From assembly GCA_017454855.1 (NCBI GenBank), contig JAFTCE010000149.1, forward strand, positions 1 to 39,577: a stretch of 39,577 bases of DNA, written 5' to 3'. The notes beneath the pieces were generated by a model. That model had not been told where the DNA came from and made no database searches. It was given only the letters and a program-made list of their open reading frames with translations. The stretch's first letter is position 1, and each line of letters opens with the position of its first letter. A program made the position numbers and the translations under genes. Source of the DNA: Desulfovibrio sp. (GTDB lineage Bacteria > Desulfobacterota > Desulfovibrionia > Desulfovibrionales > Desulfovibrionaceae). Below are positions 5,397-32,586 of the stretch, in pieces.

Positions 5397-5470
5397 GGGA
5401 GGATCAACGGCTCCTATCCGCCACTGACGAACGCGGTCGGCGGATGGAGTCGACTGCGGAGTGAAACAGA
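5397..5470 (+). repeat. Dispersed structured repeat, copy A
   Basis: Begins four bases after the rtcB stop. It shares ordered blocks with copies B (16185-16271) and C (31673-31752): GGGAGG, ACGGCTCCTATCCGCC, GGTCGGCGGATGGAG, CGACTG and a terminal GTGAAAC. ATCCGCC pairs with GGCGGAT across a loop of about 15 bases. This is the most diverged of the three copies. Confidence 0.75.
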
Positions 5471-11708: not shown

Positions 11709-11786
11709 GCTGTTTGCCTCTTTTCCGTCGCCGCAACGCTTGTATTCTTTTACCAATGACGTATAGTTGTCGGCGAGGATGTGTGC

Positions 11787-14700
11787 ATGTCTGCTTCAGA
11801 TACCTATTTTCTTGGTCTGGACATTGGCTCCACCACTGTCAAGCTGGCCTTGCTGAACAGCCAGGGTCAGGTCGTCGCCACACGCTACGAACGCCACGGC
11901 ACAGCAGTACGCGCCACGCTCGCAGCCTTATTGGAAGACGCCGCAACGCGTTTTCCAAACATTGCTGTGCGCTGTGCCATGACGGGTTCCGGGGCCTTGG
12001 ATCTCAGTAAACGTCTTGGCCAGCCCTTCATTCAGGAACTGCTGGCCACTGCCCGCGCCGTGGCCTTCTGTGCACCGGACACCACGGTGGCCGTGGAACT
12101 GGGCGGCGAAGACGCAAAACTGCTCTACCTCGGTCAGGACGTGGAATTGCGCATGAACGAATCCTGCGCCGGCGGCACAGGAGCCTTCATTGATCAAATG
12201 GCCCGCCTCCTCAACACCGACGCTGGCGGTCTCAACGATTTGGCCGCACGCCACACCACGCTCTATCCTATCGCTTCCCGCTGCGGCGTCTTCGCCAAGA
12301 CAGATATTGTCCCGCTGCTCAACGGTGGCGTACCACGAGAGGATATTGCCGCCTCCATCTTTCAGGCCGTTGTGGAGCAAACCATCGGGGGATTGGCCTG
12401 TGGCAGACCCATCGCGGGCAAGGTGGCCTTTCTCGGCGGGCCCTTGCACTTTCTGCCTGAGTTAAAAAAACTGTTCATAGAAACCCTGGCCCTGACCGAC
12501 AAAGATATTGCCCATCTGCCGGACGCGCAATGTACGGCAGCCTTGGGCGCGGCGCGTTGCGCCATGGCCGACGCCAAGTCCGAGCCTATCCCTCTTGCCG
12601 AACTGAATCGGCAAGCGGCAGCGCTGGCGCACGAAGCGCTTACGGCCCATGTTACGCCCCTGCGGCCCCTCTTTGTCGATCCAACGGAATACGCCGCCTT
12701 CCGCCAACGTCACGCCACTGCCAATGCTCTTCCCGTGGGCGACATCGGTACGGCCTCCGGTCCGCTCTACCTGGGACTCGACCTGGGCTCCACCACTGTC
12801 AAGGGCGTTTTGGTTGACAGCGAAGGCAGCATCCTTGCTTCCTGCTATGCCTCAAATGGTGGCAATCCTTTGCAAACGCTGCTGCCACAACTGGCTGACA
12901 TGCTGGGCCGCATTCCGAAGCAGGCATGGTTGGCCGCTGCCGGGGCAACGGGCTACGGAGCGCGCCTGGCGGCTTCTGCCCTGGGCGTGGACGTCACGCC
13001 GGTGGAAACCCTTGCCCATTTCAAGGCCGCCGCCCGTTTGGTTCCCGATGTCAGCTACGTCATTGACATCGGCGGGCAGGACATGAAATGCCTCAAGGTG
13101 GAAAATGGCGTCATCAGCGACGTCAACCTGAACGAGGCATGCTCCGCCGGATGTGGGGCCTTTTTGGAGAGCTTTGCGCGCGGCCTTAACTTGGACATGG
13201 AAGAGTTCGTGCGCATCGCCCTCTTTGCCGAGCATCCGGCGGATCTGGGTTCGCGCTGCACCGTGTTCATGAATTCACGGGTCACGCAAGCCCAGAAGGA
13301 CGGCATGCACGTGGCCGACATTGCCGCTGGCCTGTGCTATTCCGTGGTGCGCAATGCCCTGGACAAGGTGCTGCGCATCAAAAATCTCGAGGAACTGGGG
13401 CCGCATGTGGTTGTCCAGGGCGGTTCCTTTCTCAACGACGCCTTGCTCTGCGCCATGGAGCGAACACTGGGGCGGCATGTGCATCGTCCTGCCTCTTCTG
13501 GTCTCATGGGCGCCTACGGGGCAGCGCTGGAAGCCCAGGCCAGCCCATCCTCTCGTTCGGCCATCACTCCCGCAATGATTCGCAGCCTTGACATGCGAAC
13601 ACGGGGTTTTCGATGCCGCGAATGTGGCAACCGTTGTCTGTTGACGGAAACGCGCTTTTCCAATGGCGCACGTCACATTGCCGGCAACCGCTGTGACAAG
13701 TTCAGCGAAGCCCGCAGCGGGAATAGCGCCCCCAATCTCTTTGCCTGGAAATACCAACGTCTGTTCGACTACGAACCCCTGCCCATGCCCCAAGCCCCAC
13801 GGGGGAGGCTGGGCATTCCCCGCGTACTCAATATCTACACGCACTATCCCTTCTGGTTTACCCTCTTCACAACGCTGGGCTTCAGGGTGGAACTCTCCCC
13901 GCCCACGAATAGGGCGCTCTTTGCCGCTGGCCTGTCCTCGGTGCCGTCCCAGAGCGTCTGTTATCCGGCCAAACTAGCCCACGGCCATGTGCTGGCCTTG
14001 CTGGAACAGGGCGTCAAGCGCATCTTCTTTCCCTGCATCCCGCGCGAGACCAGGGAATATCCCGAAATGTGCGATTCCTTCTCCTGCCCCGTTGCCTGCG
14101 GCTACCCGCAGGTCGTTCGCGACAACCTGCCGGACATCAAGGATAAGGGGGCCATCGTACACACTCCCTTTGTCACCCCGACGCACACGGCCTCGCTGAC
14201 ACGCAACCTGTGTCGGGAATTCAGTTTGCCGCGGGGAGAAGTCCGAAACGCCATCCGAGCTGCCAAGGAAGCGCAGGCAAGCTATCAAAACGAACTGCGC
14301 CTTGAAGCCCGACGACTCTATGAAGATGTGCTGCGCCACAAGGGGGCACTGGTTGTTTTGGCGGGCAGGCCCTATCACGTGGATCCGCAGGTGCATCACG
14401 GCCTACCGGATTTCATTGCCTCCCTAGGAGCCACGGTTCTCAGCGAGGATGCCCTGCCCGAGGAAAGGAAGCGCTGCCTGGACATTCCCCTGCGTGTCCG
14501 CAATCAGTGGACATATCCGGCACGGCTGTACAGGGCCGCCGCCTGGGTGGCAAAGGCAGACCATGGCGATGCGCGCGTTGAGCTGGTGCAGCTTACCTCC
14601 TTCGGCTGCGGCATTGACGCCATTACTACGGATCAGATGAAGGAACTGCTGCGTTCCCACGGCAAGCTGTACACCCTGATCAAAATGGACGAGGGTAATG

Positions 14701-16085
14701 CCCTTGCTTCGGCACGCATCCGCATCCGATCTTTGCTGGCGGTCAGCCACCATACGCGGCAGGAAGTTGCGGCACAAAGATCCTCCCCTGCCGTCCTCAG
14801 ACGTTCCAAAGGCATCCATACGATTCTCGTGCCGCAGATGGCCCCCCTGCACTTTCCCCTTATTGTGAGCGCACTGGCTGCCGGGACGCGCCAAGTGCGC
14901 CTGCTGCCAGAAGTTTGCCCGGAAGCCGTCAGCCTGGGGCAGGCATATGTCAACAACGATGCCTGTTATCCGGCCATCGTGGCCATTGGTCAGCTCCTGC
15001 ACACACTGCAAAAAGAAAATGTGGATCGCGACGGCACAGCCCTGCTGCTGTCACAGACGTGCGGCCCATGCCGAGCCAGCAATTATCCGGGGCTGCTGCG
15101 CAAAGCCCTGCGGGAAAGCGGCCACGGCGACATGACGGTTCTCACACTGGCCGCCTCCGGCGGAGAAGAACACACGGGCCTGCGCCTCGACAGAGCCATG
15201 CTCTGGCGTCTGCTTCTGGGCATGCTGGCGGGCGACATGGTACAAAGGCTGGCCATGTATACGGGAACCTACGAACGGCACAAGGGGCAAACCGAGGATG
15301 TGACGCAACACTGGCTCAAACGCCTCACGCCCGTCGTTGCCGCCGGTGATGAAAGCACTCTGCGCCATCTGCTGCCGGTGCTGACACGCGACTATGCCGC
15401 CATTCCCACGGAGGAGGGGCAACGCCCCCGTGTGGCCGTCGTAGGAGAAATTCTCCTCAACTACCATCCCGATGCCAATAGGCACATTGCTGCCCAGATC
15501 CGTCGCGAAGGCGGTGAACCCCTGCTGCCCGACCTCGCCAACTTCATGCTCTATTGCCTTCGAGATGCCATCTATGACTGGCGTCATCAAGGAGGCAGCC
15601 TGTGGCCCGCGCTGGGCAATGGCCTGGCCATGCGGCGTATAGAAGGCATGCGACGGCACATGCGCGCGGCGCTCAATACCTCGCCCATGAGCGAGCATGT
15701 CATGCCCATAGCCCATATCGACGGCTTGGCCAGTCTCGGCGAACGCGTGCTTTCCCTGGGCAACGCCGCCGGCGAAGGCTGGCTCCTGCCTGCGGAAATG
15801 CTGGAATTTCTGGAACACGGAACGAATAATATCCTCTGTTTGCAACCCTTTGGCTGCTTGCCCAACCATGTGGTGGGCCGAGGCTCGTTCAAGGCCGTGC
15901 GCCGACAGCGGCCCGAGGCCAACATCATGGCCCTGGACTACGACCCGGGCAGCAGCGAAGCCAATCAGATCAACCGCATCCGCCTGTTCATGGCCATCGC
16001 TAGAGAACGTGAGGAAGAACGGAGGCAGACTGCGCGCCAGGCACGCCGTAGCATTGTGGATCTGGGGGCGCCTGCCCTGGGCTAG
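11787..16085 (+). CDS. Giant acyl-CoA dehydratase activase-related protein (tandem BcrAD/BadFG ATPase, DUF2229, HgdB-like)
   Basis: 1432 residues. Two ASKHA-type activase domains lie in tandem. The first has FLGLDIGSTTVKLALL near residue 10 and the cluster-binding NESCAGGTGAF near 122. The second has YLGLDLGSTTVKGVLV near 330 and NEACSAGCGAF near 448. A short Cys-containing segment follows (FRCRECGNRC, near 608), then DUF2229 (IPRVLNIYTHYPFWFT near 676, SVCYPAKLAHGHV), then a C-terminal region like the dehydratase subunit (LLPEVCPEAVSLGQAYVNND, TCGPCRASNYPG). HgdC-type activases use ATP to deliver a low-potential electron to 2-hydroxyacyl-CoA dehydratases; this large single-chain form is widespread in anaerobes and its substrate is unknown. 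The start at 11787 is favoured by GAGG eight bases upstream; GTG 11781 is an alternative. No hgdAB-type dehydratase genes are adjacent. Confidence 0.92.
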   Translation: MSASDTYFLGLDIGSTTVKLALLNSQGQVVATRYERHGTAVRATLAALLEDAATRFPNIAVRCAMTGSGALDLSKRLGQPFIQELLATARAVAFCAPDTTVAVELGGEDAKLLYLGQDVELRMNESCAGGTGAFIDQMARLLNTDAGGLNDLAARHTTLYPIASRCGVFAKTDIVPLLNGGVPREDIAASIFQAVVEQTIGGLACGRPIAGKVAFLGGPLHFLPELKKLFIETLALTDKDIAHLPDAQCTAALGAARCAMADAKSEPIPLAELNRQAAALAHEALTAHVTPLRPLFVDPTEYAAFRQRHATANALPVGDIGTASGPLYLGLDLGSTTVKGVLVDSEGSILASCYASNGGNPLQTLLPQLADMLGRIPKQAWLAAAGATGYGARLAASALGVDVTPVETLAHFKAAARLVPDVSYVIDIGGQDMKCLKVENGVISDVNLNEACSAGCGAFLESFARGLNLDMEEFVRIALFAEHPADLGSRCTVFMNSRVTQAQKDGMHVADIAAGLCYSVVRNALDKVLRIKNLEELGPHVVVQGGSFLNDALLCAMERTLGRHVHRPASSGLMGAYGAALEAQASPSSRSAITPAMIRSLDMRTRGFRCRECGNRCLLTETRFSNGARHIAGNRCDKFSEARSGNSAPNLFAWKYQRLFDYEPLPMPQAPRGRLGIPRVLNIYTHYPFWFTLFTTLGFRVELSPPTNRALFAAGLSSVPSQSVCYPAKLAHGHVLALLEQGVKRIFFPCIPRETREYPEMCDSFSCPVACGYPQVVRDNLPDIKDKGAIVHTPFVTPTHTASLTRNLCREFSLPRGEVRNAIRAAKEAQASYQNELRLEARRLYEDVLRHKGALVVLAGRPYHVDPQVHHGLPDFIASLGATVLSEDALPEERKRCLDIPLRVRNQWTYPARLYRAAAWVAKADHGDARVELVQLTSFGCGIDAITTDQMKELLRSHGKLYTLIKMDEGNALASARIRIRSLLAVSHHTRQEVAAQRSSPAVLRRSKGIHTILVPQMAPLHFPLIVSALAAGTRQVRLLPEVCPEAVSLGQAYVNNDACYPAIVAIGQLLHTLQKENVDRDGTALLLSQTCGPCRASNYPGLLRKALRESGHGDMTVLTLAASGGEEHTGLRLDRAMLWRLLLGMLAGDMVQRLAMYTGTYERHKGQTEDVTQHWLKRLTPVVAAGDESTLRHLLPVLTRDYAAIPTEEGQRPRVAVVGEILLNYHPDANRHIAAQIRREGGEPLLPDLANFMLYCLRDAIYDWRHQGGSLWPALGNGLAMRRIEGMRRHMRAALNTSPMSEHVMPIAHIDGLASLGERVLSLGNAAGEGWLLPAEMLEFLEHGTNNILCLQPFGCLPNHVVGRGSFKAVRRQRPEANIMALDYDPGSSEANQINRIRLFMAIAREREEERRQTARQARRSIVDLGAPALG

Positions 16086-16142
16086 AGCGTTTTCCCGTAA
16101 AAGGGAAAAAGATGTATCCCAATTCGACGCTTTCCTTTTATC

Positions 16143-16172
16143 AGCCTGTTACGACGCAGGAAGTTACAGGCT
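16143..16172. repeat. Inverted repeat downstream of the activase gene
   Basis: AGCCTGTTAC and GTTACAGGCT pair at nine of ten positions around a 10-base loop, 57 bases after the activase stop and 12 bases before repeat copy B. A weaker hairpin (TTTTCCC / GGGAAAA) is at 16090-16109. Neither has a T-run of terminator type. Confidence 0.6.
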
Positions 16173-16184
16173 GTTATGCAGAGT

Positions 16185-16271
16185 CTTCCTCTGCCAGGGA
16201 GGGCCGCACGGCTCCTCTCCGCCGGTTGCGGAGTCAGTCGGCGGACGGAACCGACTGTGGATTGAAACATC
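16185..16271 (+). repeat. Dispersed structured repeat, copy B
   Basis: Shares long identical blocks with copy C: GCACGGCTCCTCTCCGC, CGGAGTCAGTCGGCGGA and TGTGGATTGAAACATC. Two hairpins are possible: CTCCGC-CGGTT-GCGGAG and CAGTCGG-(9)-CCGACTG. The second is followed directly by TGGATTGAAAC. It lies 99 bases after the activase stop, on the same strand as that gene. Confidence 0.85.
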
Positions 16272-16514: not shown

Positions 16515-16820
16515 TTACGCGTCCCCCTCGTGATGGAGAGGCAATTCGCGGCCACCTTCTTTAAGATGCTGCAAATATTTGTCCCGACACTCATAACTGC
16601 AAAAGCGGTAGACCTTGTCGCCATCACGCACAGATATGGATTCTTCGGCATCGACGTAGGCCCCACATTGCGGATCCTTGACCATTTCCCCGGCAGCGAC
16701 CTTGCGCTCCATATCTGCGGCTTGTGTCTTCGCATCTTCTTTTTTCTTTTTCAAAAAATCATTGGCAAAAAGCCGATACAGCGCATAGACGGCAATGATC
16801 AGGATAAGCCATTTCCACAT
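16515..16820 (-). CDS. Membrane-anchored PP0621/YHS-like zinc-ribbon protein
   Basis: 101 residues from ATG 16820, which has AAGGAGG upstream; a longer frame to 16865 lacks a ribosome site. One N-terminal membrane helix (WKWLILIIAVYALYRLF, residues 2-18) is followed by a Lys-rich stretch and a compact C-terminal domain with MVKDPQCGAYV and VYRFCSYECRDKYLQHL. The C-x-x-x...C-x-x-x-C spacing matches the small PP0621 family, a TRASH/YHS-like metal-binding module. Topology would put the domain in the cytoplasm. Its function is unknown; metal sensing or binding is an inference. It lies 60 bases after folK on the same strand. Confidence 0.8.
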   Translation of the reverse strand: MWKWLILIIAVYALYRLFANDFLKKKKEDAKTQAADMERKVAAGEMVKDPQCGAYVDAEESISVRDGDKVYRFCSYECRDKYLQHLKEGGRELPLHHEGDA

Positions 16821-16880
16821 ACTACTCCTCCTTGTGCAGCGACGTCCCTGTCTGCAAGATAGCATACGGGAAGCCGTTCG

Positions 16881-31672: not shown

Positions 31673-31752
31673 GATGTTTCAATCCACAGCCCATCCGCCG
31701 ACTGACTCCGTCACCGTGCGGAGAGGAGCCGTGCAGCCATCCCTGAAGGAAG
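31673..31752 (-). repeat. Dispersed structured repeat, copy C
   Basis: On the minus strand it runs from CTTCCT through GCACGGCTCCTCTCCGC and CGGAGTCAGTCGGCGGA to TGTGGATTGAAACATC, colinear with copy B except for small deletions. TCCGC pairs with GCGGA, and CAGTC pairs with GGCTG just before the TGGATTGAAAC end. It starts 33 bases past the proC stop and ends 25 bases before the tautomerase start. A small ATCCCT/AGGGAT hairpin (31739-31756) overlaps its 5' end. Confidence 0.85.
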
Positions 31753-31785
31753 GGATTATGAAGAAGAACGCCCCATCAACGCCGT

Positions 31786-32586
31786 CTATTCCTTTTCCAT
31801 ATCTCTGCCCCTGGCGTCCGCCGCAAGCACCGCCGACACCAGCAAGCCTGTCAGACCGGCCCGATCCAGCACATTGACGCCAGCAATGGTCAATCCCGCC
31901 GGCGAACAGACATCGTCGCGCAACTGCATGAAATGTTTTGTCCCGCTGGCCGCCATGGCGGCGCAGCCATCAAACAAGGCCGCGACCATGGCATGTGCCT
32001 CGGCATGCTGAAATCCCAGCGTAACACCAGCCTGAGCAAGCCCCTGCATCATGGCGAAAACGTAAGCCGGTCCGGCACCAATGAGCGCGGAAAAGGCCGT
32101 GAACTTACTCTCCGGCATGTCTATGCACAGGCCCAGAACCGCAAAAACATCACGCACAACTTGCTTGTGTGCCGCTGTCAACGTCGGGTCTTCCAGGCAC
32201 AGGGCAAACAAACCTTTGCCCACCAGGGCCGGCGTGTTGGGCATGCAACGCACAACAGGACAGGCATTGTCCGTGAACGCGGCCAGACGTTGACGACGGA
32301 TGCCAGCCGCTATGGAGACAACTACCTTGTCCCTGTTCAAGGCCGGACGCACTTCCCGCAGCACGGCTTCCACCTGATAGGGCTTGACGGCCACAAGCAC
32401 CAAGTCTGCAGCCTGGGCCACGGCCAAGGGACTTTTCAGCACGTGTACGCCCTGCTGTTCCAAGGGCTGCATGCGTTCAGGGCTGCGATTGTAGCCGCAC
32501 AAGTCATATCCGCCATGTCTCGCCAATCCGGATAACATGGCTCCGCCCATGTTCCCGCACCCAATGCAACCGATGGTCAACGTCAT
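31786..32586 (-). CDS. proC: Pyrroline-5-carboxylate reductase
   Basis: Final step of proline synthesis, reducing delta1-pyrroline-5-carboxylate with NAD(P)H. 266 residues from ATG 32586 (GGAG upstream); a longer frame runs back into manC and is not supported. The N-terminal dinucleotide-binding loop is IGCIGCGNMGGAMLSGL. The conserved CMPNTPALVGKG and the C-terminal signature (GAGPAYVFAMMQGLAQAG, then LRDDVCSPAGLTIAGVNVLDRAG) are all present. It is 49 bases downstream of manC and may be read from the sugar-nucleotide operon or its own promoter. Confidence 0.96.
   Translation of the reverse strand: MTLTIGCIGCGNMGGAMLSGLARHGGYDLCGYNRSPERMQPLEQQGVHVLKSPLAVAQAADLVLVAVKPYQVEAVLREVRPALNRDKVVVSIAAGIRRQRLAAFTDNACPVVRCMPNTPALVGKGLFALCLEDPTLTAAHKQVVRDVFAVLGLCIDMPESKFTAFSALIGAGPAYVFAMMQGLAQAGVTLGFQHAEAHAMVAALFDGCAAMAASGTKHFMQLRDDVCSPAGLTIAGVNVLDRAGLTGLLVSAVLAADARGRDMEKE

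Follow-up and report, generated by a model that had tools for sequence, protein, structure and literature searches.

Copy B, a decayed member of a gene-less, probably IS200/IS605-like mobile family of Desulfovibrio and Mailhella with a type I-C CRISPR-repeat-like right end

Copy B and the other copies in the window

Copy B lies in the window, i.e., the whole stretch of 39,577 nt that was analysed, where the preceding gene (11781-16085, +) is CoA-activase-like and the next is a small gene (16515-16865, −) that has a weak YHS-domain match. The first-pass annotation described a two-hairpin repeat at 16185-16271. The repeat is real, but this interval does not cover the whole element: similarity to the form-Y element (see below) from locus L002 spans 16127-16270, with 95.8% identity across 144 nt. 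Copy B (16127..16270, +) is thus a form-Y element with a complete right end and a missing or decayed left end. The stem and tail at that right end had been placed correctly. As read from the sequence, arm CAGTCGG (16235..16241, +) and arm CCGACTG (16251..16257, +) are followed by the 11-nt tail TGGATTGAAAC (16258..16268, +), the would-be crRNA 5′ handle, whose bases are each conserved at 91-98% in 144 right junctions. Positions 16237..16268 (+) form a 32-nt stretch resembling a type I-C repeat (GTCG...GTGGATTGAAAC), with 18/32 positions equal to the host repeat by a count made by eye.

Two further copies are present. Copy A (5397..5468, +) consists of the right part only and has a mutated tail (CGGAGTGAAAC); copy C (31674..31786, −) is without a left end and its second stem arm is short of bases, while its tail is intact. 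The sequence blocks said to be common to copies B and C were recovered as near-exact matches on opposite strands (28 nt, 93%; 26 nt, 88%; 17 nt, 100%). An Rfam search of the window gave one tRNA at gathering scores, and for three element loci it listed 54 matches (E up to 5), all of them below the gathering score of their own families.

Forms and spread of the element

BLAST analysis of the window's genome (G000; 2,953,330 bases, 174 contigs) revealed 41 places for the element, some of which are pieces of one copy. The full-length copies extracted are of two forms, X (185 bp) and Y (about 230 bp), which differ in the middle, and the copies carry no gene. When the genus was surveyed with form X, scoring as a rule no more than ten candidates per genome, matches at E <= 1e-5 were found in 16/79 same-genus genomes and in 12/55 good assemblies. 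Among the named records with copies are Desulfovibrio piger PG-251-APC-1, Desulfovibrio sp. An276, Ca. Mailhella excrementigallinarum, and an uncultured Mailhella. A pattern search of genome contigs gave 46 matches, 4 of them unrelated 20-mers (L166, L169, L170, and L178); in viral contigs it gave 2 matches, of which L197, from IMG/VR, is a real copy and L198 another unrelated 20-mer. One Mailhella genome contained near-identical copies at separate places (L168, L179, L186, and L196).

Several arrangements were seen among individual copies. In G056, seven loci (L314, L315, L317, L319, L321, L322, and L326) consist of the right-end hairpin alone, mostly preceded by TTCA, and resemble minimal versions of the element. 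At L096, L107, and L108 a right-end fragment lies inside an apparent short secreted-protein gene, and by eye the fragment seems to be in frame in some of these copies. A DDE-type insertion sequence, identified by eye as having an IS5-like gene, lies within the copy at L133 (G061:C1:803500-806800), and two copies stand tail to tail at L204:1320-1682 (G000:C100), their right ends separated by two to three bases.

Target site and mobility

For 28 filled loci, the 90-nt sequences on either side were joined and searched against 79 genomes. Six of these loci had matches spanning the junction, and for them 15 empty orthologues were read, each place counted once; the uninterrupted sequence was TTCAT in 12, TTCCAT in 2, and TTTAT in 1; the filled alleles read TTCAT-CAAAAATTCC...GGATTGAAACAT. 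No target duplication longer than CAT was observed at the empty and filled sites compared. For copy L016, whose right end is not CAT, the right flanks of the empty sites gave no alignment. Because the empty orthologous sites share one target, the family is very likely a mobile element. The first-pass suggestion of an undescribed mobile repeat was thereby strengthened as to mobility, and no description of the family was found in the literature searched.

At the left junctions (n=111) the bases of TTCAT were each conserved at 85-94%, while the outer flank was near random with a mild T excess; the exact 5-mer TTCAT was present at 70/112 sites. At the right junctions (n=144) the bases of GTGGATTGAAAC were each conserved at 91-99%, followed by A (90%), T (81%), and random sequence. 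On the opposite strand TTCAT reads ATGAA, and 87/110 sites begin with ATG. Insertion at start codons was considered, yet there was no clear enrichment: frames of at least 60 codons were opened at 49/103 element sites, compared with 41% of 2102 control TTCAT sites. We therefore do not claim start-codon insertion. The left end of all forms, read on the opposite strand, is AAAGGAATTTTTGATGAA, which resembles a ribosome-binding site with the start codon at the target.

Mode of transposition

Movement in the IS200/IS605 manner is likely, as judged from the junctions and hairpins. The element inserts 3′ of a short fixed motif, a habit described for IS200/605 elements (PMC10711439), and it has subterminal hairpins; the left-end hairpin is visible in the alignment of copies. 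The element thus resembles IS200/IS605 and its non-autonomous derivatives (PATEs, MITE-like) in its short fixed target, lack of a long duplication, and hairpins near both ends. It differs in that its ends were not matched to those of any transposase, and in the likeness of its right end to a type I-C repeat. The element would move as single-stranded DNA, cut in trans by a Y1-type transposase. On the other hand, CAT at both ends could also arise if a transposase of a different kind duplicated 3 bp.

The enzyme was not found among the Y1 and TnpB loci covered. Y1 matches were present in 11/16 element genomes, and among 29 Y1 loci (7/35 Y1 places of G061 included; two G061 Y1 types left out) there was no autonomous element with the same ends. 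At five Y1 loci, a stretch beside the gene is 90-95% like a 21-nt stretch containing the element's left-end hairpin. Locus L241 of G061, together with six loci alike, is a multicopy Y1 insertion sequence with ends of its own (start TTTATTGTCCC, end TGTTCAAT).

The same ends were likewise missing from 11 TnpB loci. PF07282 was found in 4/12 element-related genomes (3 above cut-off), with no match in G040, G053, G054, G055, G056, or G060. Copy L276, which follows a TnpB gene at a distance of about 170 bp, was considered as a TnpB partner and interpreted as an insertion that is nested or simply adjacent. The element is not itself a TnpB element: it contains no TnpB gene, and PF07282 is missing from several element-related genomes.

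REP/REPIN sequences with TnpA-REP are alike in being dispersed palindromes after a conserved short motif, and the short forms of G056 start with TTCA. A REP is a palindrome of 20-50 nt preceded by a GTAG-type motif (PMC8266576), whereas the element has TTCA(T) and a full length of 185 bp; neither the 185 bp form nor the TTCAT motif fits the REP definition.

Likeness of the right end to the host type I-C repeat

The first-pass annotation noted neither an array nor a cas gene, which holds for the window but not for the genome: G000 has a complete type I-C operon (cas3, cas5c, cas8c, cas7, cas4, cas1, and cas2) and an array at a contig edge (C106) with the 32-nt repeat GTCGCGCCCCACGCGGGCGCGTGGATTGAAAC, ending in GTGGATTGAAAC. 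G000 contains further Cas1 genes, namely a type I-E Cas1 accompanied by Cas5e, another Cas1 close to the gene of a CARF protein, and a 783-aa Cas1-domain protein (L059, L065, and L067). The host repeat and positions 16237-16268 of copy B have the same length (32 nt), GTCG at the start, and the same last 12 nt. Repeats sharing nothing beyond ATTGAAAC had been named as the outcome that would speak against a CRISPR-like end, and the likeness observed exceeds this motif. The 12-mer GTGGATTGAAAC occurs 26 times in G000, twice in the array and 24 times in element-matching loci, and the reversed 12-mer, used as control, 0 times; the recurrence of this end in the genome is therefore more than chance.

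We take TGGATTGAAAC to be the 5′ handle of type I-C crRNA. The element end is like a type I-C repeat in the GTCG start, the stem closed just before TGGATTGAAAC, and, in form X and copy B, the length of 32 nt. It is unlike it in being single, dispersed, and spacerless, and the stem sequence differs (18/32 identical in copy B). The copies do not form a type I-C array: they are dispersed, not regularly spaced with spacers, and the true array is at C106. In the type I-C Cascade, Cas5c and Cas7 are reported to clamp the 5′ handle U1-G12, of which C11 and G12 adjoin the PAM side (PMC7684278). Because the host has a type I-C system whose repeat shares the 12-nt end, GTCG, and 32-nt length, the first-pass suggestion that right-end RNA could be seen by the CRISPR machinery becomes more plausible.

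Folding predictions were in partial agreement with this likeness. In consensus right ends and in the host repeat, the predicted stem closes directly before the 11-nt tail. In copies B and C no such fold was obtained by minimum energy; both arms of copy B are present as first described, but the minimum-energy structure predicted for its last 34 nt is not this stem. Hairpin statistics were calculated for 50 copies out of 58 distinct full-length copies collected. The CRISPR-like stem had 93.0% of cells paired and 3 cells changed on both sides, and a longer competing hairpin had 90.7% paired and 17 changed on both sides. RNAalifold gave a weak value for the whole element (-8.19 kcal/mol).

We also compared the distribution of the 12-mer with that of cas5c. 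Arrays were read from nine genus genomes and were located via the 12-mer, so that their 12-mer ends are by construction. Five genomes with a cas5c match above cut-off (G001, G005, G042, G065, and G077) had no exact 12-mer; other I-C repeat ends therefore exist in the genus, and the end is not fixed. G056 (99% complete) had 39 exact 12-mers and no cas5c match. The G056 12-mers that were read are mostly element copies, with a few orphan I-C repeats (L309 and L310) and some that are neither. Orphan type I-C-like repeats were also seen at L300 (G055) and L304 (G053), likewise genomes in which no cas5c was found, and a former CRISPR system is therefore possible in these three genomes.

The PAM and the insertion target

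Arrays yielded 590 distinct spacers, of which 151 were searched against 79 genomes. Protospacer loci were those returned plus 20 picked from the list, and array self-matches were dropped. For the 21 spacers with a readable protospacer (best for each), the three bases just 5′ were TTC in 12, TTT in 3, and TCC, CCG, CTC, TAT, GCG, and TGC in 1 each; all 38 distinct protospacers among the loci fetched gave TTC 14, GCC 8, and CTC 4. TTC is the I-C PAM reported in Xanthomonas and Pseudomonas. The spacers of two arrays had no match in phages; against plasmids, one 28-nt match to 16 Pseudomonas records was taken as chance.

At the empty sites, the three bases directly before the would-be protospacer were TTC in 12/15 (TCC, TCC, and TTT in the others), whereas at filled sites they are AAC. 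Since TTC precedes the empty-site flank and TTC is the I-C PAM of the genus, a crRNA-like transcript of the right end plus flank would match the empty allele with a PAM, and not the filled one.

Discussion

Copy B is probably a decayed member of a gene-less mobile family of Desulfovibrio and Mailhella that has fixed ends and subterminal hairpins and would move as single-stranded DNA in the IS200/IS605 manner. This explanation does not need any role for the CRISPR likeness. Claims about CRISPR add to that of a mobile element and are not exclusive of it, so the odds of the explanations discussed here overlap.

The likeness may be a coincidence, an ordinary transposon end happening to match the end of an I-C repeat, and we give this about even chances. 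The genome distribution agrees with coincidence and argues against a functional link. cas5c was matched in 6/16 element genomes and 15/63 others (p = 0.34; 2 of the 21 cas5c genomes lie below cut-off), and, among good assemblies, in 5/12 element genomes and 13/43 others (p = 0.50), i.e., element and cas5c were not associated. When array relics were included the value was p = 0.05; relics had been inspected unevenly and this figure was set aside. The cas5c genomes without the exact 12-mer and the larger number of two-sided changes in the competing hairpin point in the same direction. Against coincidence, a 12-nt match placed precisely at the terminus would have to combine with GTCG and with a PAM in register, which is unlikely by our estimate; this estimate leaves uncounted the places at which a likeness could have been noticed.

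If the likeness is functional, the gene-less element might be retained with the assistance of host CRISPR-Cas, its right end acting as a type I-C repeat and its target as an I-C PAM, so that uninserted alleles would be destroyed; we regard this as unlikely though worth setting out. Cas5c would make a crRNA-like guide from the handle plus the right flank. Loss of the element would restore TTC|AT-flank, i.e., PAM plus protospacer, which would be cut, and the element would then be copied back or the cell lost; the filled site AAC|AT-flank would be spared. TnpB retention was reportedly the subject of work by Meers et al. in 2023. IS200/605 TnpB elements are described with the same arrangement of TAM and guide (PMC10711439). 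Like the TnpB omega-RNA/TAM system, the element has its target motif to the left and the would-be guide to the right; unlike it, the element is without TnpB, and the nuclease would be the host type I-C system. Such retention is consistent with the I-C operon and repeat in G000, the 12-nt end and closing base common to element and repeat, the TTC PAM in the genus (12/21 spacers) and in I-C systems elsewhere, and the TTC adjoining the would-be protospacer at 12/15 empty sites. A promoter-like TTGACG-17-TATCAT is present upstream of the right end in L328, the sole copy scanned; however, other forms judged by eye match less well. The lack of association with cas5c argues against retention, as does G056 with its 39 exact 12-mers yet no cas5c match. 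TTC may merely reflect a T-rich target of the transposase, and the copies in the window are decayed.

Right-end transcripts acting instead as an RNA anti-CRISPR, i.e., solitary repeat units that would tie up Cas5c and Cas7, appear very improbable. Their architecture is like that of viral solitary repeat units, and one real copy lies on an IMG/VR contig (L197), but only 1/2 viral-contig matches is a real copy, and the copies read are mostly in bacterial contigs, many of them decayed. Viral solitary repeat units often lie just downstream of a promoter, and SRUFinder applies a cut-off of similarity to a known repeat in calling them (PMC10651486). The element end is like solitary repeat units and RNA anti-CRISPRs (Racr) in being a single CRISPR-like repeat with no adjoining cas genes; it is unlike them in being part of a high-copy chromosomal transposable element, and the inhibition role is putative.

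In the literature searched, which left most subscription journals outside its scope, and in the portions of the sources available, we recognised no description of this element family or of any transposon with an end identical to a type I repeat. Some of the bacterial stem-loop families in a survey from 2008 contain CRISPR repeats, and Desulfovibrio is unmentioned in the portion available (PMC2267715).

If the likeness is not functional, Desulfovibrio and Mailhella still have in this family a mobile repeat with clear boundaries, and its ends could pass for orphan CRISPR repeats. A functional likeness would mean that a class 1 CRISPR system does for selfish DNA what TnpB does, with repeat and PAM as the two sides of a single insertion. 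Should retention also prove true, the element would, like TnpB, be a device for homing and retention, driven by adaptive immunity that it has hijacked.
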